Source: a virus. Taken from it: a stretch of 39,516 bases of DNA. How positions within the stretch are numbered: the first letter of the stretch is position 1; every line of letters starts with the position of its first letter. The translations under genes were made by a program, and so were the position numbers. The notes under the pieces are model-generated. The model ran no database searches and was not told where the DNA came from. It was given only the letters and a program-made list of their open reading frames with translations. Positions 76 through 31,554 of the stretch are shown in pieces. The stretch spans positions 1 to 39,516 of the IMG/VR virus record IMGVR_UViG_3300027741_000135. The stretch is one strand, 5' to 3'.

Positions 76-139
76 CCCCCGACCGTGGAAAACCGAAGCC
101 CCCGACCGTGGAAACGAGCACGACCCCCGACCGTGGAAA
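76..139 (+). repeat. Three exact copies of a 16-base leader repeat
   Basis: The 16-mer CCCCCGACCGTGGAAA occurs at 76-91, 99-114 and 124-139, with start-to-start spacings of 23 and 25 bases. Degenerate versions of the same element precede most rightward genes up to 4.05 kb. No gene overlaps these copies and they lie upstream of the promoter at 223-250. They could be a protein-binding array, part of an upstream transcript leader, or the remains of duplicated gene leaders. Confidence 0.9.
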
Positions 140-222
140 CCCGAAAATTCTCACGCTACCAACTGTCCACCGATCCCCCGATCGTAACAATTCACGCGAA
201 AACCGCAGAAATTGTTTTATAC

Positions 223-250
223 TTGACTCACGCCGTGCCGATGCTATCCT
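223..250 (+). promoter_or_regulatory. Sigma70-like promoter of the left operon
   Basis: TTGACT at 223-228 and TATCCT at 245-250 are separated by 16 bases, behind an AT-rich stretch (about 208-222). The spacer shares GCCGTGCCGATGC with the promoter at 1336-1364, where the matching stretch reads ACCGTGCCGATGC. The two promoters therefore look like duplicated units. It would drive the gene starting at 312. Confidence 0.65.
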
Positions 251-268
251 TCAGACGTGGCCGGCAGA

Positions 269-305
269 CCCCGGCCGTGGAAACGATAACCCCGAACGAG
301 GAAAC
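269..305 (+). promoter_or_regulatory. Paired leader elements before the first small gene
   Basis: Two variants of the leader repeat lie in tandem: CCCCGGCCGTGGAAAC at 269-284 and CCCCGAACGAGGAAAC at 290-305. The second contains the GAGG Shine-Dalgarno core for the ATG at 312. Similar pairs or single copies precede the starts at 711, 1149, 1447, 2131, 2496, 2891, 3085 and 3722. Each unit has a GGA or GAAAC core. Confidence 0.75.
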
Positions 306-311
306 GAGATT

Positions 312-629
312 ATGAAAAACCCAGCGACGATCCCCGCCATCGTCATGCGTGAGATCAAAAGCCGCATGGATCGACTGGCCGATCTCCAGCAAACCCGCCG
401 CCACGTCATGCGGCACCACGGCCGGCAAGATTGGGCCTGGTATCTCGCGAACCCCTTCAACAGTGCTGCTGGCGAGCGGGTACAGGCGGCGCGGTCGATC
501 CTCGAGGCTCGCAGGATCATTCGCGAAAACGGCTTCGACGTCGCGACGGTCTGCGCGATCGCTCGCGATCCGGGCGCATTCGCGTTCTGCGATGGCGGCG
601 GCGCCACTCCTGAAAACATCGACCAGTAG
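312..629 (+). CDS. Hypothetical small protein, first gene of left operon
   Basis: This 105-residue protein is basic and helix-rich in its first half (MREIKSRMDRLADLQQTRRH), with tryptophans in RQDWAWYLANP and an Asp/Gly/Glu-rich end. I recognise no family. The ATG at 312 is chosen because GAGGAAACGAG lies just upstream; in-frame codons further upstream run through the repeat leader and promoter. The stop codon TAG at 627-629 is part of a TAGGCTAC motif that may belong to the next promoter. Its position in an operon of tiny genes suggests an early or accessory phage role, but nothing shows its function. Confidence 0.75.
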   Translation: MKNPATIPAIVMREIKSRMDRLADLQQTRRHVMRHHGRQDWAWYLANPFNSAAGERVQAARSILEARRIIRENGFDVATVCAIARDPGAFAFCDGGGATPENIDQ

Positions 630-647
630 GCTACACAAGACGATATT
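619..647 (+). promoter_or_regulatory. Weak promoter-like element containing TAGGCTAC
   Basis: TCGACC at 619-624 and GATATT at 642-647 are spaced by 17 bases. The spacer carries TAGGCTAC at 627-634, one base short of the AGGCTACC motif found at other promoters in the window. It could drive the gene at 711. The -35 match is poor, so this is tentative. Confidence 0.35.
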
Positions 648-710
648 CCGGTCGGTGGCACGTTGCCCCCGACCGGCGGAACGACGACCCCTAGAACGAG
701 GAAACGAGCG

Positions 711-1046
711 ATGAAACAGGAATGCGTGACGATCGGAATGCAGGCTCGCGTGAAGATCGGCCAACGGCTGGCCGAGGTGACGGTGCTCCGGCGGCTTGAG
801 GGCCGCGGGCGAGCGAGGTTCGAGTGTCGCACGAGCGACACGGGCCGCCTCGTGAAGGCCACCGCGGCCCGGCTCCGGCCGGTGCCGCCCCCGGCGGTGC
901 GGGCGATGGTTGGCCGGATGGTGGCCGCCGCGGCGGCTCGCGACGAGATCGTGCTCGGCGGCATCGACGCCTCGGCACTGTCGATCGAACCGGACGTGCC
1001 GCGCGAGCTTGCCGCCTGGGCCGCGGAGCCTGTCGGTGCCTGGTGA
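711..1046 (+). CDS. Hypothetical protein, 111 residues
   Basis: The ATG at 711 follows CTAGAACGAGGAAACGAG, which supplies the ribosome binding site. The N-terminal 55 residues are rich in short beta-type segments and Arg/Lys (ARVKIGQRLAEVTVLRRLEG), suggesting a small beta-barrel that might bind nucleic acid; this is only an impression. The C-terminal half is Ala-rich and helical. No family is recognised. It sits between other small genes that have the same leader, so it is probably co-expressed with them. Confidence 0.75.
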   Translation: MKQECVTIGMQARVKIGQRLAEVTVLRRLEGRGRARFECRTSDTGRLVKATAARLRPVPPPAVRAMVGRMVAAAAARDEIVLGGIDASALSIEPDVPRELAAWAAEPVGAW

Positions 1047-1148
1047 TCGGCCCCCGGCACAGCCCCGTCGCCCTCGGGCGGGGTTGGGCCGGCGGCCGGC
1101 GATCGACGCCTGACCCGTGGATGGAAACCCCGAAGGAGGAAACGAGAG

Positions 1149-1361
1149 ATGAAACCGAAGACCTTTTTGCCGTGGTGGAACTGCGCTGCCCTGGTGCTCG
1201 AGGGTGGCGACGAAATCGACCTGGACATCGACGTTCGGGCCGAAACCGCCGGTCAGGCCGAAGACATCGCGAGAGCTGAGTGGGCAGACCACGGCTACAG
1301 CCCCGACCGAGTGAACGTGCGGAAAGATTCAAGCATTGACTCTGACCGTGCCGATGCCTAG
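1149..1361 (+). CDS. Hypothetical acidic protein, 70 residues
   Basis: The start at 1149 follows CCCCGAAGGAGGAAACGAGAG, a leader element with a strong AGGAGG. The protein is acidic in the middle (EGGDEIDLDIDVRAETAG), followed by a helix (AEDIARAEWADHGYSPDRV). This pattern is seen in small phage proteins that carry an amphipathic two-strand and helix unit. The last codons overlap the next promoter, whose -35 box TTGACT is at 1336 and whose -10 box begins at the TAG stop. Function unknown. Confidence 0.72.
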   Translation: MKPKTFLPWWNCAALVLEGGDEIDLDIDVRAETAGQAEDIARAEWADHGYSPDRVNVRKDSSIDSDRADA

Positions 1362-1364
1362 TAT
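1336..1364 (+). promoter_or_regulatory. Sigma70-like promoter inside the left operon
   Basis: TTGACT at 1336-1341 and TAGTAT at 1359-1364 have the ideal 17-base spacing. It is followed at once by GCTACC, a partial match to AGGCTACC. The spacer resembles that of the promoter at 223. It would give extra transcription of the gene at 1447 onward. Confidence 0.65.
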
Positions 1365-1399
1365 GCTACCAGACGCGACAACGGCAGGGGCCGCGTTGG

Positions 1400-1440
1400 C
1401 CCCGAACGTGGAAACGAGAATTACCCTAGAACGAGGAAAC
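1400..1440 (+). promoter_or_regulatory. Paired leader elements before the gene at 1447
   Basis: CCCCGAACGTGGAAAC at 1400-1415 and CCCTAGAACGAGGAAAC at 1424-1440 repeat the arrangement seen before 312 and 711: a GTGGAAAC copy, a short gap, then a GAGGAAAC copy that doubles as the Shine-Dalgarno sequence. The two GGA triplets are 25 bases apart. Confidence 0.7.
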
Positions 1441-1446
1441 GAGATC

Positions 1447-1725
1447 ATGGCTGCGATGAAACGGTTTTACGAGGATTGTGCGGTGGCGGGCCGGTGCCCG
1501 ATCAGTCCGCGGACGTTCAACTACCTGGACGACCTGGAGTCGATCGACGCCACGATCGACTGGATCGGCTACTGCGAGCACGACCTGTTCGACGCCTCCG
1601 GCCGCATGATCGGCTACGAGGACTGCATCACGATGGAGTCGGCTCGCCGGCTCGTCGCGATCGGCCTGGCGAACGCGGAGATCGGTTCGTTCGTGGATAA
1701 CTTCGGAGACTACTGCCCGGCCTGA
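1447..1725 (+). CDS. Hypothetical acidic protein, 92 residues
   Basis: The ATG at 1447 follows ACGAGGAAACGAGATC. The protein is strongly acidic and aromatic (FNYLDDLESIDATIDWIGYC), with five cysteines spread along it and a C-terminal NFGDYCPA. Small acidic early phage proteins sometimes mimic DNA or inhibit host enzymes, but that is only a possibility here. The gene has its own promoter at 1336-1364, suggesting higher or separate expression. Confidence 0.75.
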   Translation: MAAMKRFYEDCAVAGRCPISPRTFNYLDDLESIDATIDWIGYCEHDLFDASGRMIGYEDCITMESARRLVAIGLANAEIGSFVDNFGDYCPA

Positions 1726-1809
1726 CCGGCCGCCGCCCCGGCTCGTTGCCTGGGCGGTTCGATGATGGGATGATTTAACCAGACCCCCGGACGGGGGAAG
1801 GAGAGGACG

Positions 1810-2025
1810 ATGAGCGCGACGGATGACAAGGTGAAAATCGTAGGCGGCGACACTCTTGAGGTTGGTGAATGCGGTGGCCCCGTCTGGATCAAGGTCGGCG
1901 GGTTGACGCTCCAGATCACCGAAACAGAGAGCGGCGCGATCGTGGACGCCTGGCGGAAGGATGACGAACCGATGGCCGAGCCTTGGACGGTTGAGTTTGA
2001 CGGCAAGACGATGGACGTTCGATAA
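1810..2025 (+). CDS. Hypothetical acidic beta-rich protein, 71 residues
   Basis: The start at 1810 follows GGGGGAAGGAGAGGACG, a strong ribosome binding site in a diverged leader (CCCCCGGACGGGGGAAGG). Alternating hydrophobic residues (VKIVGGDTLEVGECG, IKVGGLTLQITETE) suggest an all-beta fold. No family is recognised. A 105-base gap follows, which holds only leader-like repeats. Confidence 0.72.
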   Translation: MSATDDKVKIVGGDTLEVGECGGPVWIKVGGLTLQITETESGAIVDAWRKDDEPMAEPWTVEFDGKTMDVR

Positions 2026-2130
2026 ACCGACCCGCCCGCAACCCCCGGCCGGCGAAACGCTGACGGGGGCGACGGGCGGGCCGACGTGGCCCGGAGCGCG
2101 AGAACCTAAACCCTAGAAATGAGGAGAGCG

Positions 2131-2427
2131 ATGATGCGACCCTACGAAGAGATGACGCTGGCCGACTATGCCAGCAGCCGCGATGCTGTCTGCGTGTTTT
2201 TCGCGGGCATCGGCACCCCCGCTGGAGACTATCTGCCGCTGGGCGTTCCCGATGTCGTTGACGAGTTCGCTGAGCGACTATTGGGCCTGCGCGGCTACGT
2301 TGACGAGCACGGTGATTGGGCCTGGGACGGCAACGGCGACCCGCGGGATTGCCGCGGCAACACCGTCACGAAAGTGCAGGCGTATCAAAATCGCGAAACG
2401 TGGGCCGATATGGCGGCTGGCGAGTGA
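2131..2427 (+). CDS. Hypothetical acidic protein, 98 residues
   Basis: Two ATGs stand in tandem at 2131 and 2134 behind GAGGAGAGCG; an in-frame ATG at 2119 overlaps the ribosome binding site and is unlikely. The sequence has a helix-rich N-terminus (YEEMTLADYASSRDAVCVFF), a glycine/proline loop, and an acidic Trp-containing stretch (DEHGDWAWDGNGDPRD). Function unknown. It belongs to the left small-gene cluster. Confidence 0.72.
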   Translation: MMRPYEEMTLADYASSRDAVCVFFAGIGTPAGDYLPLGVPDVVDEFAERLLGLRGYVDEHGDWAWDGNGDPRDCRGNTVTKVQAYQNRETWADMAAGE

Positions 2428-2495
2428 CTCCCGAACGACGAAACAACAGACCCTAACCCTGCCGCCCCGTGCGGCGAAACCAGAGGAGAGAGACG

Positions 2496-2816
2496 ATGAA
2501 ACTGACGATGAACGGTGAGGATCGAAGCGAGTCAACTGTCGAATCAGCGGCGCAGGCATTGGTGCGAATTCAGCCAAAGCAAGCCGAGGTGAACGGGATC
2601 GTGATCGACCGGCCTGAGCGGTGGACGGTCGAAGCTGCCTCCGAGGAGGTCGCGGTGGCCTTGTCGGCCGGAGACTGGTATTGGCTTGACGGGTCGGCGT
2701 ACTGCCCAGCCTGCGTGGAGTGCGACTCTCCAGCGATTGACGCGGGCGATCCCCGCGTGCAGCGAGGTGGCGCCGTCAGCGTGTGCTCGTGCTGCAAGAC
2801 CGACTACGCCGCTTGA
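2496..2816 (+). CDS. Hypothetical protein with four-cysteine zinc-ribbon-like end
   Basis: The start at 2496 follows CAGAGGAGAGAGACG. The C-terminal third has CPACVEC at about residues 78-84 and CSCCKTD near the end, a spacing that fits a zinc ribbon or knuckle, with the connecting loop rich in Asp, Gly and Arg. The N-terminal part shows no familiar motif. Zinc ribbons commonly mediate nucleic-acid or protein contacts, so a regulatory or inhibitory role is possible but not shown. Confidence 0.72.
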   Translation: MKLTMNGEDRSESTVESAAQALVRIQPKQAEVNGIVIDRPERWTVEAASEEVAVALSAGDWYWLDGSAYCPACVECDSPAIDAGDPRVQRGGAVSVCSCCKTDYAA

Positions 2817-2890
2817 ACTATCTCGCGCCCCGGCGGCCCGCCGCCACCCCGGAGCGTAGAAACCCCGTGCGGCGAAACCAGAGGAGAGCG

Positions 2891-3088
2891 ATGATGCTGT
2901 TCAACCTTGTCGAGAAGACCGCCGGCCCATGGCATGGCAAGGTCTGGCGATCCGAGGAAATGACTGTTGAGGATGCCGCGAGCCGAAACGGCAAGATCGA
3001 AGTGATGAAGTGGGAGCCGGCCGAGCTGATGGAGAACGAGGACGAAGCCAGCCGCCCCGTGCGGCGAAACATGAGGAGAGGACGATGA
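2891..3088 (+). CDS. Hypothetical protein whose end is encoded by the next leader
   Basis: ATGATG at 2891 follows CAGAGGAGAGCG. The 65-residue product has a small beta-rich N-terminus (LFNLVEKTAGPWHGKVWR). Its last dozen residues (SRPVRRNMRRGR) come from the leader element CCCCGTGCGGCGAAAC and ribosome binding site of the next gene. Its stop overlaps the next start as ATGA at 3085-3088. The basic tail may thus be an accident of lost stop codon rather than a selected part. Function unknown. Confidence 0.65.
   Translation: MMLFNLVEKTAGPWHGKVWRSEEMTVEDAASRNGKIEVMKWEPAELMENEDEASRPVRRNMRRGR
3051..3080 (+). promoter_or_regulatory. Leader element with small hairpin inside coding sequence
   Basis: GCCGCCCCGTGCGGCGAAAC can fold with GCCGC pairing to GCGGC around a CCCGT loop, followed by ATGAGGAGAG, the ribosome binding site for the start at 3085. 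The same CCCCGTGCGGCGAAAC 16-mer is found at 2465-2480 (also with the hairpin) and 2865-2880 (without the left arm). Confidence 0.55.
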
Positions 3089-3432
3089 TCTACTGGATTC
3101 TGACCGACGTCGCTGGAAAGCATGGCCGGCGGCACGATGGCGACTGGGAGCCGCTCGAGCGGCGATCTCCCGCGAGCGACGAGGTGGAGCGGTTCCACCG
3201 ATACCGCGATGCGGTGGCGAAGGCGAAGAAGCTCAAGGCGAAGGACTGCCACTGCAAGCCGCTGAAGCAGGAGGGCATCGTGCTCTTCTGGCGGTTGCCG
3301 GAGCGGGCTGGCGAGAACGACCTGGCCGAGGTGGTCGAATTCAGGTCGAAGCGGCAGGCGGCGGCTTGGCGGAAGCAGGCCGAGGCCGAGGGCTGCGAGG
3401 TGATCGAGTGCCTGGGAACGGCGAAACGATAG
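3085..3432 (+). CDS. Hypothetical basic protein, 115 residues
   Basis: The ATG at 3085 overlaps the preceding stop (ATGA) and has GAGGAGAGG upstream. The protein begins with a hydrophobic strand (MIYWILTDV) and continues with a charged helix (RYRDAVAKAKKLKAKDCHC). Its second half (LFWRLPERAG, VVEFRSKRQAAAWRKQAEAE) looks like a small alpha/beta domain ending in a helix. No family is recognised. Translation is probably coupled to the gene at 2891. Confidence 0.72.
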   Translation: MIYWILTDVAGKHGRRHDGDWEPLERRSPASDEVERFHRYRDAVAKAKKLKAKDCHCKPLKQEGIVLFWRLPERAGENDLAEVVEFRSKRQAAAWRKQAEAEGCEVIECLGTAKR

Positions 3433-3442
3433 GAGGCCGACC

Positions 3443-3625
3443 GTGAAAAACAGAGTGACCCCTTACGAGGCCGGCTGGCTGACAATGCTGGTCAAGACCG
3501 GGATCGCCAGCGAGCAGGATGCTCGAGCGGCGATGGATCGGGTGGCCCAGGCCGCCATCGATGAGCTGGTTGCCCGGAGGCGGGCGAAGCGGCGCGAGAA
3601 ACGCCGGCGAAAGAGTGACGATTGA
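3443..3625 (+). CDS. Hypothetical very basic protein, 60 residues
   Basis: A GTG start at 3443 has AGGAGG ten bases upstream. The first 40 residues suggest two helices (EAGWLTMLVKTGIASEQDA), and the C-terminus is an Arg/Lys run (RRRAKRREKRRRKSDD), typical of nucleic-acid contact. Function unknown. The gene ends just before the promoter at 3622. Confidence 0.65.
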   Translation: MKNRVTPYEAGWLTMLVKTGIASEQDARAAMDRVAQAAIDELVARRRAKRREKRRRKSDD

Positions 3626-3662
3626 CAAGGCTACCGGACGATAGATAAATAAGGCTACCGGA
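3622..3662 (+). promoter_or_regulatory. Strong promoter flanked by two operator repeats
   Basis: TTGACA at 3622-3627, a 17-base spacer and ATAAAT at 3645-3650 make the best sigma70-type match in the window. The 12-mer AAGGCTACCGGA occurs twice, at 3627-3638 inside the spacer and at 3651-3662 just past the -10 box, 24 bases apart. A protein bound there would block transcription of the genes from 3722 onward. The same 12-mer recurs once more at 16824-16835 in reverse. Confidence 0.75.
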
Positions 3663-3721
3663 GCAGCGTCAGGCGTGTGGCCTGCCGCCCCGGTGCATGG
3701 AAACCCAAGGAGGAAGCGAAG

Positions 3722-4030
3722 ATGATTCTTCACAACGGAGAGACGATCTACTTGTCATTCACCTCGGCCGGCAATTTGGCCGATGCCCCGAAGGCATGGG
3801 TCACGGAGGCGGTCGTGGTCGATGCCGAGCACCGGATCGTCCGCGAGCCGGAGTACGGTCGCGTGCGGGTGCTCTCGTCGGTCGAGGGCATCCACCAGTC
3901 CGCGACGGACGCCTGGGCGCGGTGCTCGACGGAGCTGGCTGCGTTCGCGACGGCCATCCGCCTGCGGGCCGACGAGTGCGCCCGGAAGGCGGCGCAGTTG
4001 GCGATCGTCCGCGAGGAGGCCGCAACGTGA
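3722..4030 (+). CDS. Hypothetical protein, 102 residues
   Basis: The ATG at 3722 has CAAGGAGGAAGCGAAG upstream. The N-terminal half looks beta-rich (GETIYLSFTSAGNL, VTEAVVVDAEHRIV) and the C-terminal 45 residues form a long Ala/Arg-rich helix (ELAAFATAIRLRADECARKA). It is the first gene after the strong promoter at 3622 and its paired repeats. Its stop overlaps the next start as GTGA. Function unknown. Confidence 0.72.
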   Translation: MILHNGETIYLSFTSAGNLADAPKAWVTEAVVVDAEHRIVREPEYGRVRVLSSVEGIHQSATDAWARCSTELAAFATAIRLRADECARKAAQLAIVREEAAT

Positions 4031-4161
4031 CCCCCGACCGTTGGAACCAGTGGCTGCGCTGGCTGCTGCTCGTCCGTCTCGGGCAAGAGCTGGGGACGGA
4101 CGGGCCGCTGGCCCAAGCGATTCACGATTTACTGGATGCTTTTCTTAGGGTTGTCCGATAG
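4027..4161 (+). CDS. Possible 44-residue protein coupled to the gene before
   Basis: A GTG at 4027 overlaps the previous stop (GTGA) and opens a 44-codon frame rich in Trp and Leu (RWNQWLRWLLLVRLGQEL) that could form an amphipathic or membrane-associated helix. There is no other support. The start region also resembles the leader element (CCCCCGACCGTTGGAAC), so this may be leader rather than coding sequence. Confidence 0.4.
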   Translation: MTPDRWNQWLRWLLLVRLGQELGTDGPLAQAIHDLLDAFLRVVR

Positions 4162-7677: not shown

Positions 7678-7966
7678 TTGTGTCGCCTCCGGTAGCGTTA
7701 TTCAGTCTACCAGACCACGCAGACGCGAGGCGGGCTTCCCGCTCTGCCTGCGACCACTCCGAACGGATCATTGCCGCCGCCATCCGTATCTCTTCTCGCG
7801 ACGGCAGGTACGTCTCTGGATCGACCCGCTGCGGCAGGCCCATCGACTTGGCGACCGCCTCCAACTGCTCGACCGAGAACTCCATCTCCTCGGCGATCTC
7901 GGTGAACGTCAGCTCGCCCTTCCAGAGGTGCCGGAGGGCGCGCTTCTGGTTGGGCGTCAGTTTCAT
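7613..7966 (-). CDS. Helix-turn-helix protein, GcrA-like, 117 residues
   Basis: The ATG at 7966 overlaps the glycosyltransferase stop (ATGA). The N-terminal 45 residues hold an HTH (KRALRHLWKGELTFTEIAEE, FSVEQLEAVAKSMGLPQR), followed by a conserved IRSEWSQAEREARLA segment also present in the protein at 9719-10042. A Gly/Arg-rich tail follows. The pair look like paralogues. The family resembles small HTH proteins of the GcrA or sigma-region-4 type. A role in phage gene control is inferred. Confidence 0.65.
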   Translation of the reverse strand: MKLTPNQKRALRHLWKGELTFTEIAEEMEFSVEQLEAVAKSMGLPQRVDPETYLPSREEIRMAAAMIRSEWSQAEREARLASAWSGRLNNATGGDTNAGGGASRRGCEGGETARPAR

Positions 7967-8820
7967 GGCAGGATCGCGATGTACCTCGAGCCGGGGTTTA
8001 AGAACATCTGGTAGCCGGCCTTGCTCAGTTCATGGTGAAACGCGACGTGCTCGCAGTCCGGCGTGCCGTCCACGCCCGTGCCGGAGTATCGGCCCGCCAG
8101 ATACGCCTCGCGGGTGTAGACCGCCAAGCCTCCGAAGACGCTGTTGAACCGGATCGGCGGCGAGGCCGGGGGCGGCAGGAGCAGATGGAACCACTGCGGA
8201 TTCTTCCGATCCTCCCACCAGTTCAAACGCGCCGCCCAGGAGTCGTACTGGGCCATCCCCAGCACGCCGCTCTCGTCCTGCCGCAGAAAGAGCGAGTAGC
8301 TCGCCATGCCGCCGGGGTACAGCGGGCCGCACGCCTGCTCAGACTTCTCCAGCAGCCATCCGATGGAGTTGCAGACCCCGTCCACCGAGAACCCGCCCTG
8401 CGGATCGACGTCCAGCACGCAGACGTAGTCCGCGTCTGGTGCGTTCGCCTCCACCCAGTCGCGGCAGCGGTTGCGATACTCGGCCAACCGCACCGTCCGC
8501 TCCGGCTCGAACCCCCGGTAGTCCTCGCGGTCTAGCGTGGCGTGCTCGACGGTCACCCACTGCCGGATCGCGAAATCGTCCAGCACCTCGGCGGTGTTGT
8601 CGGCCGAGTCGTTCTCGTAGACGTACATCACGGCCTGCCGAAACCTGCCGGCCAGCTCGTCCACAAGCGTGAGCGTGTTCTTCAGGTACGGCATCGCCGT
8701 CCGCGCGATCGCCACGATGGCGAGCTTCGACCTGGCGGCCTCGAGCACGCCGGCCCGCGTCCGCTTGTCGAAAGACTCGCGATACTTCGGCTCGATATGC
8801 CAAATGTCTTCAGGTCGCAC
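7963..8820 (-). CDS. Glycosyltransferase, GT-A type
   Basis: This 285-residue protein starts with GTG at 8820. It has a Rossmann-like opening (KLAIVAIARTAMPYL) and VYENDSADNTAEVLDD, typical of nucleotide-sugar binding. The acidic motif is VCVLDVDPQGG, the DxD that binds metal and the sugar nucleotide. A later segment, FGGLAVYTREAY, fits an acceptor region. The sugar and acceptor cannot be told. The neighbouring FkbM methyltransferase overlaps by 11 bases, so the two probably act on the same glycan: host surface polysaccharide, a virion protein or modified DNA. Confidence 0.8.
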   Translation of the reverse strand: MRPEDIWHIEPKYRESFDKRTRAGVLEAARSKLAIVAIARTAMPYLKNTLTLVDELAGRFRQAVMYVYENDSADNTAEVLDDFAIRQWVTVEHATLDREDYRGFEPERTVRLAEYRNRCRDWVEANAPDADYVCVLDVDPQGGFSVDGVCNSIGWLLEKSEQACGPLYPGGMASYSLFLRQDESGVLGMAQYDSWAARLNWWEDRKNPQWFHLLLPPPASPPIRFNSVFGGLAVYTREAYLAGRYSGTGVDGTPDCEHVAFHHELSKAGYQMFLNPGSRYIAILP

Positions 8821-9430
8821 GAGAGAAAACCCAAAAGTGGCCTGGATGGGCGTTGGCGGCAGGGTGCGGCATGATCTCGATGTCCTCGCGGCCCAACCGC
8901 CGCAACTGCTCGCCGACGGCGGTCTGAGTGTCGTGAACCTCGATGAGCCACCGCGTCTCCGCGAACGCCTCCGGCGTGGCGCCGGCCAGCACCGCGGCCT
9001 CCGACCCCTCGACGTCGATCTTCACGAAATCGATGTCTTGGCACCCGAAGCGGTCCCGCGCCACGAACCGCAGGAAGTCCAGCGTCACCGTCGTGACGCC
9101 GATCGTCTGAACAACGGGGGCTTCGGCTTGGTCGCCGGCCCCAATCGGATGCTCCAGAAGTGTCGATGACTGCGTCGATTCTGGCCGCAGGTGAAACTCA
9201 GCCACGCCGTGCTTCTCGCCGGCAGCGACCTCCATGAGATGGACGTTGGGCGGGAGCGACTGCCGCAGCTCGGCCAGTGCTCTGGGGTCAGGCTCGACGG
9301 CGATCACATGATCGAACCTGGCGGCCAGCCACCGCGTCCACTCGCCGACGTTTGCGCCGATGTCGATCGCCACGCGGCAGGGGCCGGCAACGGCGGCCTC
9401 GCGGAACTCTTCCAACCACTCTTCACTCAT
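8810..9430 (-). CDS. FkbM-family SAM-dependent methyltransferase
   Basis: The 206-residue protein shows the SAM-binding motif AIDIGANVGEWTRWLA, then VIAVEPDPRAL for the ribose-binding acidic residue, and the family-typical DFVKIDVEGSEAAVLAG. FkbM enzymes usually methylate sugar hydroxyls, often on surface glycans. The start at 9430 overlaps the VRR-NUC gene by 8 bases. Pairing with a glycosyltransferase suggests a glycan-decorating unit. Cytoplasmic; no membrane segment. Confidence 0.9.
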   Translation of the reverse strand: MSEEWLEEFREAAVAGPCRVAIDIGANVGEWTRWLAARFDHVIAVEPDPRALAELRQSLPPNVHLMEVAAGEKHGVAEFHLRPESTQSSTLLEHPIGAGDQAEAPVVQTIGVTTVTLDFLRFVARDRFGCQDIDFVKIDVEGSEAAVLAGATPEAFAETRWLIEVHDTQTAVGEQLRRLGREDIEIMPHPAANAHPGHFWVFSRAT

Positions 9431-12581: not shown

Positions 12582-13714
12582 GCCAGCAGCCCCTCTTTCT
12601 CGACGGCCGCCGCAATCCGCTCCTCCGCCAACTTGACGTAGTCTGGGTTCAGCTCGCACCCGATGCCGCTGCGGCCAAGCCGCGCGGCAACCGCCAGCGT
12701 CGTGCCGGAGCCTGCGAAGGGGTCAAGGATCGTGCATGGGGCCGGATGATGCTCTGGACACTTACATGACGGGCGCCATCCCTTCGTCTCTACGGCCACG
12801 CCGGCAACGTCGTTGGCGCAAGAGTTTCCTGTTCCATCTTCACCGTGTCTCTTTGTGTAAGCGTTTGGCCGATCGCGGAGAAGTTTCTTTCGTTCCGTGA
12901 TCCTCTCCCACGGCGATCCGCACCGCGGGCAGCAGCCTTCTTCGCTGGTGCCGGCAAGAACGCACGGCTCGACTAGGTCTGGCGGCATGGTTGCGAAGTG
13001 CGCGCCTTTGTACGGCTTTGTTGTGACCGTCCAGACGGAGCGGCGATTGCGTTTTTCTGCCGCACCTATGTCGTGAAGGTTGGCAGAAAGCCGAAGCTTT
13101 TCGCCGCCAGCGCGGCCTGCTTTCGTAGGCTTCTTGTTTCCAGGCGACCTGCCGCTGGCCTGCTCGCTTATTGCGCACGAATCGAAGTAGTACCGCTCGC
13201 TCTTCGTTAGCAGGAAAACGTATTCGTGAGCCTTCGTGCAGCGATCCCGCACGCTCTCGGGCATTGGGTTGGGCTTATGCCAGATGATGTCCTGCCGCAG
13301 CCACCAACCGTCAGCCTGGAGGGCGAAGGCGACACGCCACGGGATGCCGACGAGGTCTTTTGGCTTGAGGCCGTTGATGGGCAACCTGTTCGGGCTTGTC
13401 GCGGCCCCTTTCCATCGAGCGCCCTGTGCGCCTCCACCGGGGCAGTTGCCGACCAGTCCAGCGCCAGTTGCGTAAGAATCGCCAAGATTCAGCCACAACG
13501 TCCCGTCCTCACGCAGCACCCTCCTCACCTCGCGGAACACTTCCACCATGCGAGCGACGTAGGCTTCCGGCGTGGACTCCAGGCCGATCTGCCCGTCGCA
13601 GTTGTAATCGCGCAAGCCCCAATACGGAGGACTTGTGCAGCAACAGTGAACGCTGGCGTCGGGGAGCGTCCGCAGCCCTTCGATGCAGTCGCCATGAATG
13701 ATGCGGTGAGTCAT
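12578..13714 (-). CDS. DNA amino-methyltransferase, beta-type (N4-C or N6-A)
   Basis: This 378-residue protein starts IIHGDCIEGLRTLPD and has the catalytic motif IV TSPPYWGLRDY at residues 27-37. The SAM motif I lies near the C-terminus in ILDPFAGSGTTLAVAARLG, the beta arrangement. SPPY often marks N4-cytosine enzymes, but N6-adenine is not excluded. The middle holds CCPRCGSPWERI and CKCPEHH, probably a zinc-binding insertion. The start at 13714 overlaps the protease stop (ATGA). With the C5 enzyme it could give the phage two different modifications. Confidence 0.93.
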   Translation of the reverse strand: MTHRIIHGDCIEGLRTLPDASVHCCCTSPPYWGLRDYNCDGQIGLESTPEAYVARMVEVFREVRRVLREDGTLWLNLGDSYATGAGLVGNCPGGGAQGARWKGAATSPNRLPINGLKPKDLVGIPWRVAFALQADGWWLRQDIIWHKPNPMPESVRDRCTKAHEYVFLLTKSERYYFDSCAISEQASGRSPGNKKPTKAGRAGGEKLRLSANLHDIGAAEKRNRRSVWTVTTKPYKGAHFATMPPDLVEPCVLAGTSEEGCCPRCGSPWERITERKKLLRDRPNAYTKRHGEDGTGNSCANDVAGVAVETKGWRPSCKCPEHHPAPCTILDPFAGSGTTLAVAARLGRSGIGCELNPDYVKLAEERIAAAVEKEGLLA

Positions 13715-14436
13715 CACTCCCCCACCTCCATCACAGTGCCGATCCACTCCCGATAGAGGCTCACCCGCGTGTGGCCGCTCTCCTCGCCGGCACGGCTGCG
13801 GAGCGGTCCCTTATCGGCCATCGTGAAACTGTTGATCCCCGTCAGTGCGCCATTGCAGAAGAGCGGGCCGCCGGAGTCGCCGGGGCTAATGCAAAGCTCG
13901 AGCGGGCTTGTCATGCGGCCGGCGTGGCAGACGATGATCATCCGCTCAAAACGGGCGATCGTGTTCGTGCCGGCCCGCAGCCGGCCGTCCGATTCGGTGT
14001 GGCCGACCGACAGCCGGCCGTGAACGCCGTAGCCGGCAATGCTCACAGTCTGCCCAACTGATTCGCGTCCAGTAGCCAATGGCGGGTAGAAGCTCCGCCC
14101 AAACGGCTGCGAGGACTCGAGCATCGCGATGTCGTTCCACCCAACTCGGTCATCATCGAAGTCGGGGTGGATGTAGACCCGCAGAACAGGAACGTCATCG
14201 ACCTCAAAGTTCGTCGCCCCGTGGACGACGTGGGCCGCCGTCAACGCCCAGGTGTCGGCAATCAGAGTGGCCGACGCTTGAATCGCCCGCCCCGACGAGT
14301 CCTTGGCCGTCAGCTTCGCGGTGTACGGGGCGAAGCCCTCCCCGTAACTCAGATAGGCCGAGTCGGGGTGGTGATCGTCCGTCGTGCCGGCGATGGCGAC
14401 CGTTGAGAAGGCGAGGATGGCGATGAGTGTCTTCAT
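13714..14436 (-). CDS. Secreted trypsin-like serine protease (S1)
   Basis: The start at 14436 overlaps the GIY-YIG stop (ATGA) and yields a clear signal peptide (MKTLIAILAFSTVAIAG, cleavage likely after AIAG). The catalytic triad is present: TAAH for His, WNDIAML for Asp, and SPGDSGGPLF for Ser. With 240 residues it is a single S1 domain with no PDZ, unlike HtrA. An exported S1 protease is rare in phage genomes. It could degrade host periplasmic proteins, aid lysis, or be a host-derived moron gene. Its position between a GIY-YIG gene and a DNA methyltransferase does not explain its role. Confidence 0.9.
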   Translation of the reverse strand: MKTLIAILAFSTVAIAGTTDDHHPDSAYLSYGEGFAPYTAKLTAKDSSGRAIQASATLIADTWALTAAHVVHGATNFEVDDVPVLRVYIHPDFDDDRVGWNDIAMLESSQPFGRSFYPPLATGRESVGQTVSIAGYGVHGRLSVGHTESDGRLRAGTNTIARFERMIIVCHAGRMTSPLELCISPGDSGGPLFCNGALTGINSFTMADKGPLRSRAGEESGHTRVSLYREWIGTVMEVGE

Positions 14437-15362
14437 GTGTCGCGTCCAGTAGCCATCGACTTCTGCTTCCGGGGACGCGCCGGTCGGCCGCTGCTGACGT
14501 TCTCCATCGCCAAGACCTCGCCGTTTAGCCGCGGCTGGTATTTCCAGATGTAGTACGGCTCCGCGACCCAGGTCACGCCGGCGTCCATCTTCACGACGCT
14601 GATGTAGTCGCCGGCTTGCGCCTTGTGGTGGCTCGCAAGTCTCGTAGCAATGCAATTCGCACGCCCGACGTAGGCAATCTCTCCACACCTCCAGACGAAA
14701 TACACTCCACTGACGCCGGAGTAAACCGTCTTTGCCGCCAGGATAGAAATCGTCTTTGCCGGCGGATCGGGGAATTGCTGCCCGCGGCCTGTAAGATTTC
14801 TTACAGCCACAGATGACTTTTGCTGCATGAATTCCTTGGTGTACGGCTGGCTCAACGAAGACTGAAGGCTCTTGATCTTTTCCTTCAACACGCGAAGCTC
14901 GCCGCGATAGGCGCACACTCTGTCGATGACGATGTCGCGTAGCCTAGCGGCTTCCGCAGTTTTCTTGTCGGCCTCTAAAGAAGCACACCCTTTCGCCGCC
15001 GCCGCCTCGTAGCACTCCATCGCGAACAGAATCCCTTCAAGAAAAGCAAACGGCACGCGAAGGCGTTCTATGGTGTAGATGGGACTGTCCCACACCTGCG
15101 GAAAATCTTCGGCAGACCCGCTCACGCACCACCGCTCCGGCGATCGGCTGAAGTGCAGAAAAGAGTCTCCGGCGAGCTTGATGCAAAAACCGCATGAAGT
15201 CTTCTTCAATGATTCGACATCGTCCGTGTCGAACGTCTCAAAAGGCGTGTTCTCGTACCCCATTCGCCTGAAGAAGTTCTCTGCTATCGCGCACACGGCC
15301 TCGTGGTTTTTCGACGCCATCGCACGGCGTATATCCGCGGCCCAGATGTCAATCGCTGCCAT
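14433..15362 (-). CDS. GIY-YIG nuclease-domain protein with novel N-terminus
   Basis: In the last third of 309 residues, GVYFVWRCGEIAYVGRANCI matches GIY-YIG core (GVY and YVG), followed by Arg and His in ATRLASHH and the metal-binding Glu in VAEPYYIWKYQPRLN. The first two thirds (about 190 residues) have no known domain to me; they hold a Cys-containing patch (KKTSCGFCIKLAG) and a helical coil region (ELRVLKEKIKSLQSSL). It may be a homing-type or restriction-like nuclease. No signal peptide. The start at 15362 follows the tiny membrane protein gene. Confidence 0.8.
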   Translation of the reverse strand: MAAIDIWAADIRRAMASKNHEAVCAIAENFFRRMGYENTPFETFDTDDVESLKKTSCGFCIKLAGDSFLHFSRSPERWCVSGSAEDFPQVWDSPIYTIERLRVPFAFLEGILFAMECYEAAAAKGCASLEADKKTAEAARLRDIVIDRVCAYRGELRVLKEKIKSLQSSLSQPYTKEFMQQKSSVAVRNLTGRGQQFPDPPAKTISILAAKTVYSGVSGVYFVWRCGEIAYVGRANCIATRLASHHKAQAGDYISVVKMDAGVTWVAEPYYIWKYQPRLNGEVLAMENVSSGRPARPRKQKSMATGRDT

Positions 15363-15702: not shown

Positions 15703-15882
15703 TCAGTGTTGTGCCGGCAAACGCGGCGGGGTGGATGCGATCTCCTCGCGAACAACGCGGACGCTCCGCGGTGCCTTGATGCAGAGCCTGACGCGGCCGT
15801 CTGGAAAGATGCGGCCGACGGTGACCTCCACGTTGTCACCGATGAAAAGCCGCTGGCCGGAGCGACGAGTAATCACGAGCAT
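15703..15882 (-). CDS. csrA: CsrA-family translational regulator
   Basis: The 59-residue product aligns by eye with CsrA over its whole beta core: start MLVITRRSGQRLFIGDNVEV, then TVGRIFPDGRVRLCIKAP and SVRVVREEIAS. The RNA-contact Arg in VREEI (Arg44 of E. coli) is kept, as are the N-terminal ML and TRR. CsrA dimers bind GGA motifs in RNA hairpins and block or stabilise translation. The tail (TPPRLPAQH) is short. The gene has GGAGTTGCTTCA before the ATG and a promoter with a perfect palindromic operator 25 bases further up. It could act on host transcripts or on this phage's own GGA-rich leaders. Confidence 0.93.
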   Translation of the reverse strand: MLVITRRSGQRLFIGDNVEVTVGRIFPDGRVRLCIKAPRSVRVVREEIASTPPRLPAQH

Positions 15883-15906
15883 TGAAGCAACTCCATTTGC
15901 TGGGTC

Positions 15907-15938
15907 GGTAGCCTACGAGGCTACCGGCGAGGCGTCAA
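15907..15938 (-). promoter_or_regulatory. csrA promoter with palindromic operator
   Basis: The perfect inverted repeat GGTAGCCT-acg-AGGCTACC spans 15907-15925. Reading leftward, TTGACG (15938-15933), 17 bases and TAGGCT (15915-15910) form a promoter covered by the palindrome. The stop codon of the preceding ExoX-like gene lies within it. This is the only place where two copies of the octamer face each other closely, which suggests dimer binding. Confidence 0.75.
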
Positions 15939-30977: not shown

Positions 30978-30999
30978 CAAGCAGCACCATCCGTGGTAC

Positions 31000-31554
31000 T
31001 TACATTCTAACCGCGCCACATTCGCCGATGGCGGCATCTACGGCGCCCTCAAGGTCTTTGATCGTCCCGTGGTTGGTGACGTGGACGTCCACGTCTTCGT
31101 CGGGAATGCCGGCCTCGCTGGTGTGCCGCATGGCGACCCCAGCGACACACCCCGAGTGCCGCACCACCTTCCAGATCACGCCGCCTGCGGCCCGCAAGGC
31201 GGCGACCTCGTTGGGAAAGCGGACGTCGGTGACGGCGACCCCGAAATCGAATGACTTCAGCTTGTCCAGCCGGCGAAGCAGAAGATCGACCCAGATGTTT
31301 TCGCCGATCGTGTTCCGCCCCCACTCTGTCCCGAGGGTCTGAAGCAGGTACCTGGGCGACTTGCCGATGTGCTCGAGGATTTTCTCTTTCGTGCCGCGGT
31401 CTTGAAGCTGATCTGCCGTCAAACCCGTGATCAACGAAACGGCGGCGTAGATGGGGTCGGCGAACGCCAGCGACACGAAGTTGTGCCGGCGCCGCAGGAG
31501 GTCGGCTACGGTGCTCTTTCCGGCCCCGGCGGGGCCGCACAAGCCAATCAGCAT
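31000..31554 (-). CDS. Deoxynucleoside monophosphate kinase (T4 gp1 type)
   Basis: The 184-residue protein opens with the P-loop LIGLCGPAGAGKSTVADLL and has SPRYLLQTLGTEWGRNTIG and VAVTDVRFPNEVAALRAAGG, the pattern of phage dNMP kinases. It would phosphorylate dNMPs to dNDPs for DNA synthesis, and may accept modified nucleotides. ATG at 31554. It lies within the tail block, an unusual place for a metabolic enzyme. Overlaps the small upstream gene by 7 bases. Confidence 0.9.
   Translation of the reverse strand: MLIGLCGPAGAGKSTVADLLRRRHNFVSLAFADPIYAAVSLITGLTADQLQDRGTKEKILEHIGKSPRYLLQTLGTEWGRNTIGENIWVDLLLRRLDKLKSFDFGVAVTDVRFPNEVAALRAAGGVIWKVVRHSGCVAGVAMRHTSEAGIPDEDVDVHVTNHGTIKDLEGAVDAAIGECGAVRM

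Follow-up and report, generated by a model that had tools for sequence, protein, structure and literature searches.

Regulators of the CsrA/RsmA family recognize RNA hairpins that present the motif ANGGAN in a hexaloop. Overlap of such a site with a Shine-Dalgarno sequence results in repression, sites 10-63 nt apart can be bridged, R44 and L4 are critical residues of the protein, and csrA of Escherichia coli regulates itself (PMC7652899). The family is also found on mobile elements: in Pseudomonas fluorescens the plasmid-borne RsmQ assumes control of regulation (PMC9928087), and csrA alleles were recovered from 30 of 2517 phages in a study that calls for loss-of-function tests (PMC7366521), such phage genes having been listed since at least 2020 with neither a known target nor a known role. 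The locus described here shares with the latter two cases the presence of csrA on a mobile element. With the autoregulatory and target systems of the cellular proteins (E. coli csrA and glgC, RsmE-hcnA; PMC7652899) it shares the protein family, the equivalent of R44 and an ANGGAN hexaloop hairpin over the Shine-Dalgarno sequence, which makes it a candidate for self-targeting. Unlike the E. coli csrA and RsmE systems, it features a phage-encoded core gene, a very short leader consisting of almost nothing but the hairpin, and related hairpins on other phage genes; a further difference from Csr systems is that a scan of the window against Rfam found no CsrB-like titrating RNA. Unlike the previously listed phage alleles, csrA is here universal in one phage family and accompanied by candidate target sites. 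These candidate sites on phage mRNA are specific and covarying, which makes the role of the phage CsrA directly testable.

The window, by which we mean the whole stretch of DNA analyzed, is a 39,516-base virus fragment recorded in IMG/VR; it belongs to a family of tailed phages that probably have Planctomycetes as hosts. Its general organization is as follows:

0.3-4.5 kb, plus strand: a run of small genes
minus strand: genes for PrimPol, a UvrD-type helicase, an SNF2-type helicase, two DNA methylases and a minor-tail-like protein

Searches with the PrimPol, with the leader repeat discussed below and with a conserved 259-aa protein, a core gene of the same module as PrimPol, recovered about 70 related IMG/VR records; four unrelated carriers of a shared 16-mer (G007, G012, G018 and G025) were left out, as they have no genes in common with the window. 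The sequence of one family record, 33,863 bases long, was binned as a contig into a Planctomycetaceae MAG, and another MAG of this group holds a further, short contig bearing the repeat element; based on this binning a planctomycete host is likely. A pattern scan for the element in genome contigs returned mostly coding sequence or tandem repeats; genuine arrays of the element were seen on three short contigs, all of them phage contigs that had been binned into MAGs, in two cases into Planctomycetaceae ones. Among the other genes of the window, an ORF with a trypsin-like protease domain (13714-14916, minus strand; PF00089, E 2.5e-20) lies beside the two DNA methylases, and an FkbM-type methyltransferase (8810-9430, minus strand) adjoins a glycosyltransferase-like protein (7963-8820, minus strand) that scores slightly below its Pfam cut-off.

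The gene of interest and the features of its leader are:

15703..15882, minus strand: csrA, 59-aa protein of the CsrA/RsmA family, predicted from family membership to bind RNA
15886..15901, minus strand: candidate CsrA site over csrA's own Shine-Dalgarno sequence, AGCAA[AUGGAG]UUGCU, with an ANGGAN hexaloop
15908..15938, minus strand: csrA promoter, TTGACG-N17-TAGGCT(AC), the sole match in the window (0.01 expected)

The reading of this gene in the earlier note, as a full CsrA with the key arginine kept, is borne out. The product belongs to PF02599 with 60.6 bits (E 1.4e-16; curated cut-off 27), matches PHROG 9500 ('CsrA-like regulator') and is matched by solved CsrA/RsmE chains of the PDB (best E 2.3e-7). 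It possesses the equivalent of E. coli R44 in the stretch VVREEI, and this arginine is kept in all 32 family CsrA copies that were aligned; the position of L4 is occupied by isoleucine rather than leucine. In the three record sets searched, csrA was detected in 27/44, 4/11 and 32/42 family records. Of the last set, the ten records without csrA extend no further than about 4.3 kb 3' of the core gene for the 259-aa protein, and in the window csrA is located about 5 kb 3' of that gene. The apparent absence of csrA from G027, G047 and these ten was accordingly rejected, as the records stop short of its locus. Every family record that reaches the place of csrA carries it, and since those without it stop before this position, csrA counts among the core genes of the phage family, in its replication module.

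In the window the upstream sequence of csrA reads TTGACG-N17-TAGGCTACCGACCC AGCAA ATGGAG TTGCT TCA ATG. The Shine-Dalgarno sequence is contained in the loop ATGGAG, which stands 8 nt before the start codon as counted from the loop, and the leader thus displays the hexaloop, the stem and the Shine-Dalgarno overlap of a CsrA target site. A perfect stem of at least 3 bp around an ANGGAN hexaloop, 4-9 nt before the start, is present in 43 of 52 distinct csrA leaders of the family and one of at least 4 bp in 36 of the 52; the other nine have no perfect stem of at least 3 bp, some of them showing a bulge or a 7-nt loop. The stems themselves vary widely (GCUGA/UCAGC, AGCAA/UUGCU, UCCGA/UCGGA, AACGG/CCGUU, GAGG/CCUC, AGUGA/UCACU, AGGA/UCCU). 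The covariation score of these leaders is 0.631 vs 0.196 after shuffling (sd 0.031), a value that none of 500 shuffles reached, and in slid registers it is 0.199 at most. Across 41 distinct windows anchored solely on the GGA, 79.5% of the cells are paired vs 53.8% in shuffled sequences, the former figure being biased slightly upward, since, given a choice of two GGAs, the anchor favors the one flanked by the longer stem.

The argument for this hairpin rests on comparison because in the window it is not the minimum-energy fold: the minimum lies elsewhere, at -6.0 and -5.6 kcal/mol in two foldings, and the stem alone is weak (-2.9 kcal/mol). It is the minimum-energy fold in three of four relatives that were folded. 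Folding energy, with z-scores near zero, was rejected as evidence, and register and covariation were used instead. Given the promoter, the 5' UTR of csrA is predicted to be about 20-25 nt long and to be filled by the hairpin; the same promoter arrangement is seen in 34 of the 52 leaders, 33 of these with the N17 spacer. An inverted repeat, GGTAGCC-TCGTA-GGCTACC (15907-15925, minus strand), overlaps the -10 box of csrA and could be an operator; judging by eye, most relatives have not retained its repeat structure.

Hairpins of the same type recur at the starts of other phage genes. In a family-wide scan for ANGGAN located 4-11 nt before the ATG of ORFs of at least 60 aa, which yielded 743 distinct motifs, a perfect Watson-Crick stem of at least 4 bp occurs in the exact hexaloop register in 48, vs a mean of 2.6 and a maximum of 11 in other registers (loop shifted by 1-3 nt, or of 5, 7 or 8 nt). 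These 48 matches include orthologues and might represent perhaps ten independent gene families. With csrA excluded the stems are still present in 44 of 729 motifs. BNGGAN motifs have a stem in 10 of 1857 instances with no spike in any register, and in five unrelated phages none of 82 ANGGAN motifs has a stem in the hexaloop register. The gene families with recurrent hairpins of at least 3 bp, and one further site in the window, are:

111-aa late-looking protein, function unassigned: 19 of 26 leaders
117-118-aa late-looking protein, function unassigned: 21 of 23 leaders
53-aa gene near csrA: 6 of 6 leaders
tape measure: 9 of 20 leaders
PrimPol: 18 of 51 leaders
SNF2-type helicase: 24 of 54 leaders
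94-aa protein: 15 of 37 leaders
30983..31000, minus strand: second long-stem ANGGAN hairpin, AGUACC[ACGGAU]GGUGCU, 11 nt before the start (30977)

Four of these gene families other than csrA, when pooled, gave a covariation score of 0.720 vs 0.170 (+-0.041) for shuffled sequences. In the two largest besides csrA, the 111-aa and 117-aa families, the stems vary little from one member to the next, and no member of either was found in the window; PHROGs supplied no name for any of four small hairpin-bearing proteins that were tested. In the window itself, complete hairpins whose loop starts with A and which stand immediately before an ATG are present only at csrA and at the gene behind 30983-31000, which encodes a 105-aa membrane-like protein. 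Homologues of the latter have the hairpin with different stems in four other phages, and it is found in 5 of 26 leaders overall; it is tentatively regarded as a candidate CsrA site.

For comparison, 37 csrA leaders were taken from planctomycete genomes, one of which proved to come from the phage contig; of the 36 that remain, none has a stem of at least 4 bp and seven have one of 3 bp. The csrA leaders of five phage records from Pseudomonas, Vibrio, Providencia and Acinetobacter either have stems of 0-2 bp or contain no ANGGAN. On host chromosomes 2 of 88 motifs have a stem in the hexaloop register, which in this small sample does not differ significantly from the phage rate (p = 0.22). In the order to which the MAG holding family member L182 belongs, csrA was found in all 58 genomes sampled, with 2-14 matches each.

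The genes, the hairpins, their register and their covariation are directly observed, and from them we infer binding by CsrA, a repressive sign of the regulation and its timing along the following lines. The sigma70-like promoter of csrA would give rise to a short mRNA whose leader consists of hardly anything but the putative CsrA-binding hairpin. As the CsrA dimer accumulates it would bind the loop, which is its own Shine-Dalgarno sequence, and block the ribosome; the reduced initiation would in turn lower the synthesis of CsrA, with such autorepression setting a ceiling on its level. The dimer could also bind similar loops on other phage mRNAs and tune their translation, the candidate regulon comprising the 111-aa and 117-aa late-looking proteins, the tape measure, PrimPol and the small gene next to csrA. 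A regulon of this kind is suggested because the same hairpin recurs at the starts of these other genes. We consider it probable that the phage CsrA is autoregulated and has a phage regulon. The broader proposal, that the family runs its own Csr regulon in which CsrA acts on ANGGAN hairpins at the starts of replication and late genes and sets their translation during infection, has in our view about an even chance of being correct. The self-regulated switch postulated in the earlier note thus gains comparative support from the ANGGAN hairpins, mainly that of csrA itself, and not from the sites which that note had named. If this is true, phages of Planctomycetes, a little-known group, would possess a circuit of post-transcriptional control, and hosts with as many as 14 resident csrA copies would face a phage competitor.

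Several other explanations of the hairpins were weighed against a phage-encoded circuit. Since all 58 sampled genomes encode CsrA, the host protein meets phage mRNA anyway, and the hairpins might be targets of host CsrA proteins with which the phage version competes or which it replaces; but the hairpin is strongest on the phage csrA and is unseen at 4 bp or more on the sampled host csrA genes, and no phage of the family has dispensed with csrA, so that we regard this alternative as distinctly unlikely. A somewhat better case, though still one that we judge rather unlikely, can be made for a CsrA that mostly rewires host mRNAs, such as those for motility and metabolism, in the manner of the plasmid RsmQ, with the phage hairpins merely limiting its own level. 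The precedent of RsmQ speaks for it and an autoregulatory site is compatible with it, but the hairpin recurs, in one and the same register, at the starts of several phage genes, which speaks against it. The hairpins could also be ordinary start-site structures, occluding the Shine-Dalgarno sequence or acting as RNA thermometers, with no link to CsrA, and indeed their stems have few base pairs and little stability, and the folding of shuffled sequences is about as favorable. However, the enrichment is limited to the A-first hexaloop and to one register, with no corresponding spike for BNGGAN, and an A-first hexaloop in one register is the known CsrA/RsmE signature; this explanation is scarcely probable.

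A further alternative places the action of the phage CsrA in the early operons, where the dimer would bridge pairs of GGA motifs in the leaders and the three extra copies at 76-139 would serve as a titrating RNA, as the earlier note had proposed. The relevant features are:

76..144, plus strand: three tandem element copies, CCCCGACCGTGGAAAC, upstream of early promoter 1
223..250, plus strand: early promoter 1, sigma70-like, TTGACT-N16-TATCCT
268..316, plus strand: early leader 1, with GTGGAAAC at 277, GAGGAAAC at 298 and the start codon at 314
1112..1151, plus strand: early leader with an overlapping element pair, 15-nt spacing, start codon at 1149
1336..1364, plus strand: early promoter 2, TTGACT-N17-TAGTAT
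1399..1449, plus strand: early leader 2, with GTGGAAAC at 1408, GAGGAAAC at 1433 and the start codon at 1447

The pairs claimed for these leaders are present exactly in early leaders 1 and 2, with the GGA on the Shine-Dalgarno sequence and the second one 21 and 25 nt upstream, inside the known bridging range; the overlapping leader has ATGGAAAC/GAGGAAAC at about 1121/1136 instead, and the element at 698 is single and unpaired. Moreover, in all 21 records found to have both the core replication gene and the early region, the element is accompanied by csrA. Against this stands the pattern of conservation: a site kept for CsrA should retain the GGA foremost, but when each triplet in turn was left out of site selection, AAC proved to be retained in 86%, CCC in 76% and GGA in only 45% of the element copies, and frequent variants read GGCGAAAC and GTAGAAAC. 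ANGGA, the form preferred by CsrA, is rare, being present in 13 of the 148 copies next to a start and in 22 of the 344 others, and both members contain GGA in only 36 of 106 upstream/start pairs in the family. The early-operon leaders thus lack the conserved GGA, ideally as ANGGA in a loop, of a CsrA target. In addition, eight relatives forming a sister clade (G078, G079, G080, G081, G086, G087, G089 and G096, or L300-L307) have csrA and the left region, with few or no leaders bearing the dispersed element, and csrA is therefore separable from these leaders. On the grounds of GGA conservation and of this clade the early-operon pairs were rejected as CsrA sites, and bridging in the early leaders together with a titrating RNA is very unlikely.

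The early-operon GGA pairs are instead copies of a dispersed start-associated or promoter element distinct from the CsrA sites, with the consensus [C]CCCCGA(A/C)CG(T/A)GGAAACGAGA, also written CCCCGA(A/C)CG(T/A)GGAAACGAG. A weight matrix fitted to 119.7 kb of early-region sequence from 20 related phages detected 532 copies there vs four on the reverse strand, and 138 copies in 888 kb outside such regions. One form, GAGGAAACGAG, stands directly before the ATG (148 copies), its AAAC end mostly 5-6 nt away, and the other, GTGGAAAC, is placed further upstream. In the window, GNGGAAAC has 16 copies vs 6.9 expected, a number reached by none of 100 shuffles, with eight on the plus strand at 108-1440; CCC-N6-9-GGAAAC occurs 20 times on the plus strand and never on the minus strand (0.8 expected), the corresponding figures in relatives going up to 54/0. 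In being a short asymmetric repeat in one orientation, with many copies immediately before starts, overlapping the Shine-Dalgarno sequence and often having an upstream inverted repeat, the element resembles the SAS/ESAS of cluster K mycobacteriophages (PMC3203893) and stoperators. It differs from the mycobacteriophage SAS in sequence (CCCCGANCGNGGAAAC vs GGGATAGGAGCCC, a different consensus with no homology; PMC3203893), in its larger number of copies and in its tandem arrays upstream of a promoter. As CCCCGANCGNGGAAACGAG the element extends over 76-4050 (plus strand) of the window and the early regions of 20 phages, with about 13-48 copies in each.

The arrangement of the element shows some additional regularities. 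Of 210 distinct spacers between successive copies, 180 have an odd length (15, 21, 23, 25, 31, 39, 47, 49 and so on), a count from which shared ancestry of leaders has been only partly removed, and the long spacers often contain hairpins with 5-nt loops, which would fix the parity. The early 5' UTRs of the window (268-286, 1388-1404) and of its clade relatives start with a hairpin that has the CCCC of the element in its 3' arm, as in early leader 2, where the CCCC of the first element is the 3' arm of GGGGCC-GCGTT-GGCCCC; the stems of these hairpins vary (GGCCGG/CCGGCC, GGGGCC/GGCCCC, GGGGUC/GACCCC).

As for the three extra copies, all are present, the first of them reading GTGGAAAA. As promoter 1 is downstream of them, they lie outside its transcript; the region 76-140 folds worse than its shuffles (z +1.8), and the Rfam scan of the window gave no match. 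A titrating RNA at this position was rejected on promoter position and folding, although transcription that starts further upstream is conceivable. In most of the sister-clade relatives, 17-23 nt units such as ACCCGTCCGTGATAAGG are repeated in tandem, in an array that resembles the dispersed element (CCCGNCCGNNGNAAA) and lies immediately upstream of a sigma54-like promoter (e.g. TGGCACGGCAGTTGCA). Because the arrays at 76-140 and in the sister clade sit at or upstream of promoters, their position suggests a role at the level of DNA rather than as a titrating RNA. In the clade of the window the early promoter is conserved as TTGAC-N16/17-GATGCTANNNT and is followed by the early leaders. The sister clade has 2-6 sigma54-like early promoters per early region, and there are none in the early regions of the window's clade; these sigma54-like vs sigma70-like early promoters amount to a switch of promoter type within one phage family.
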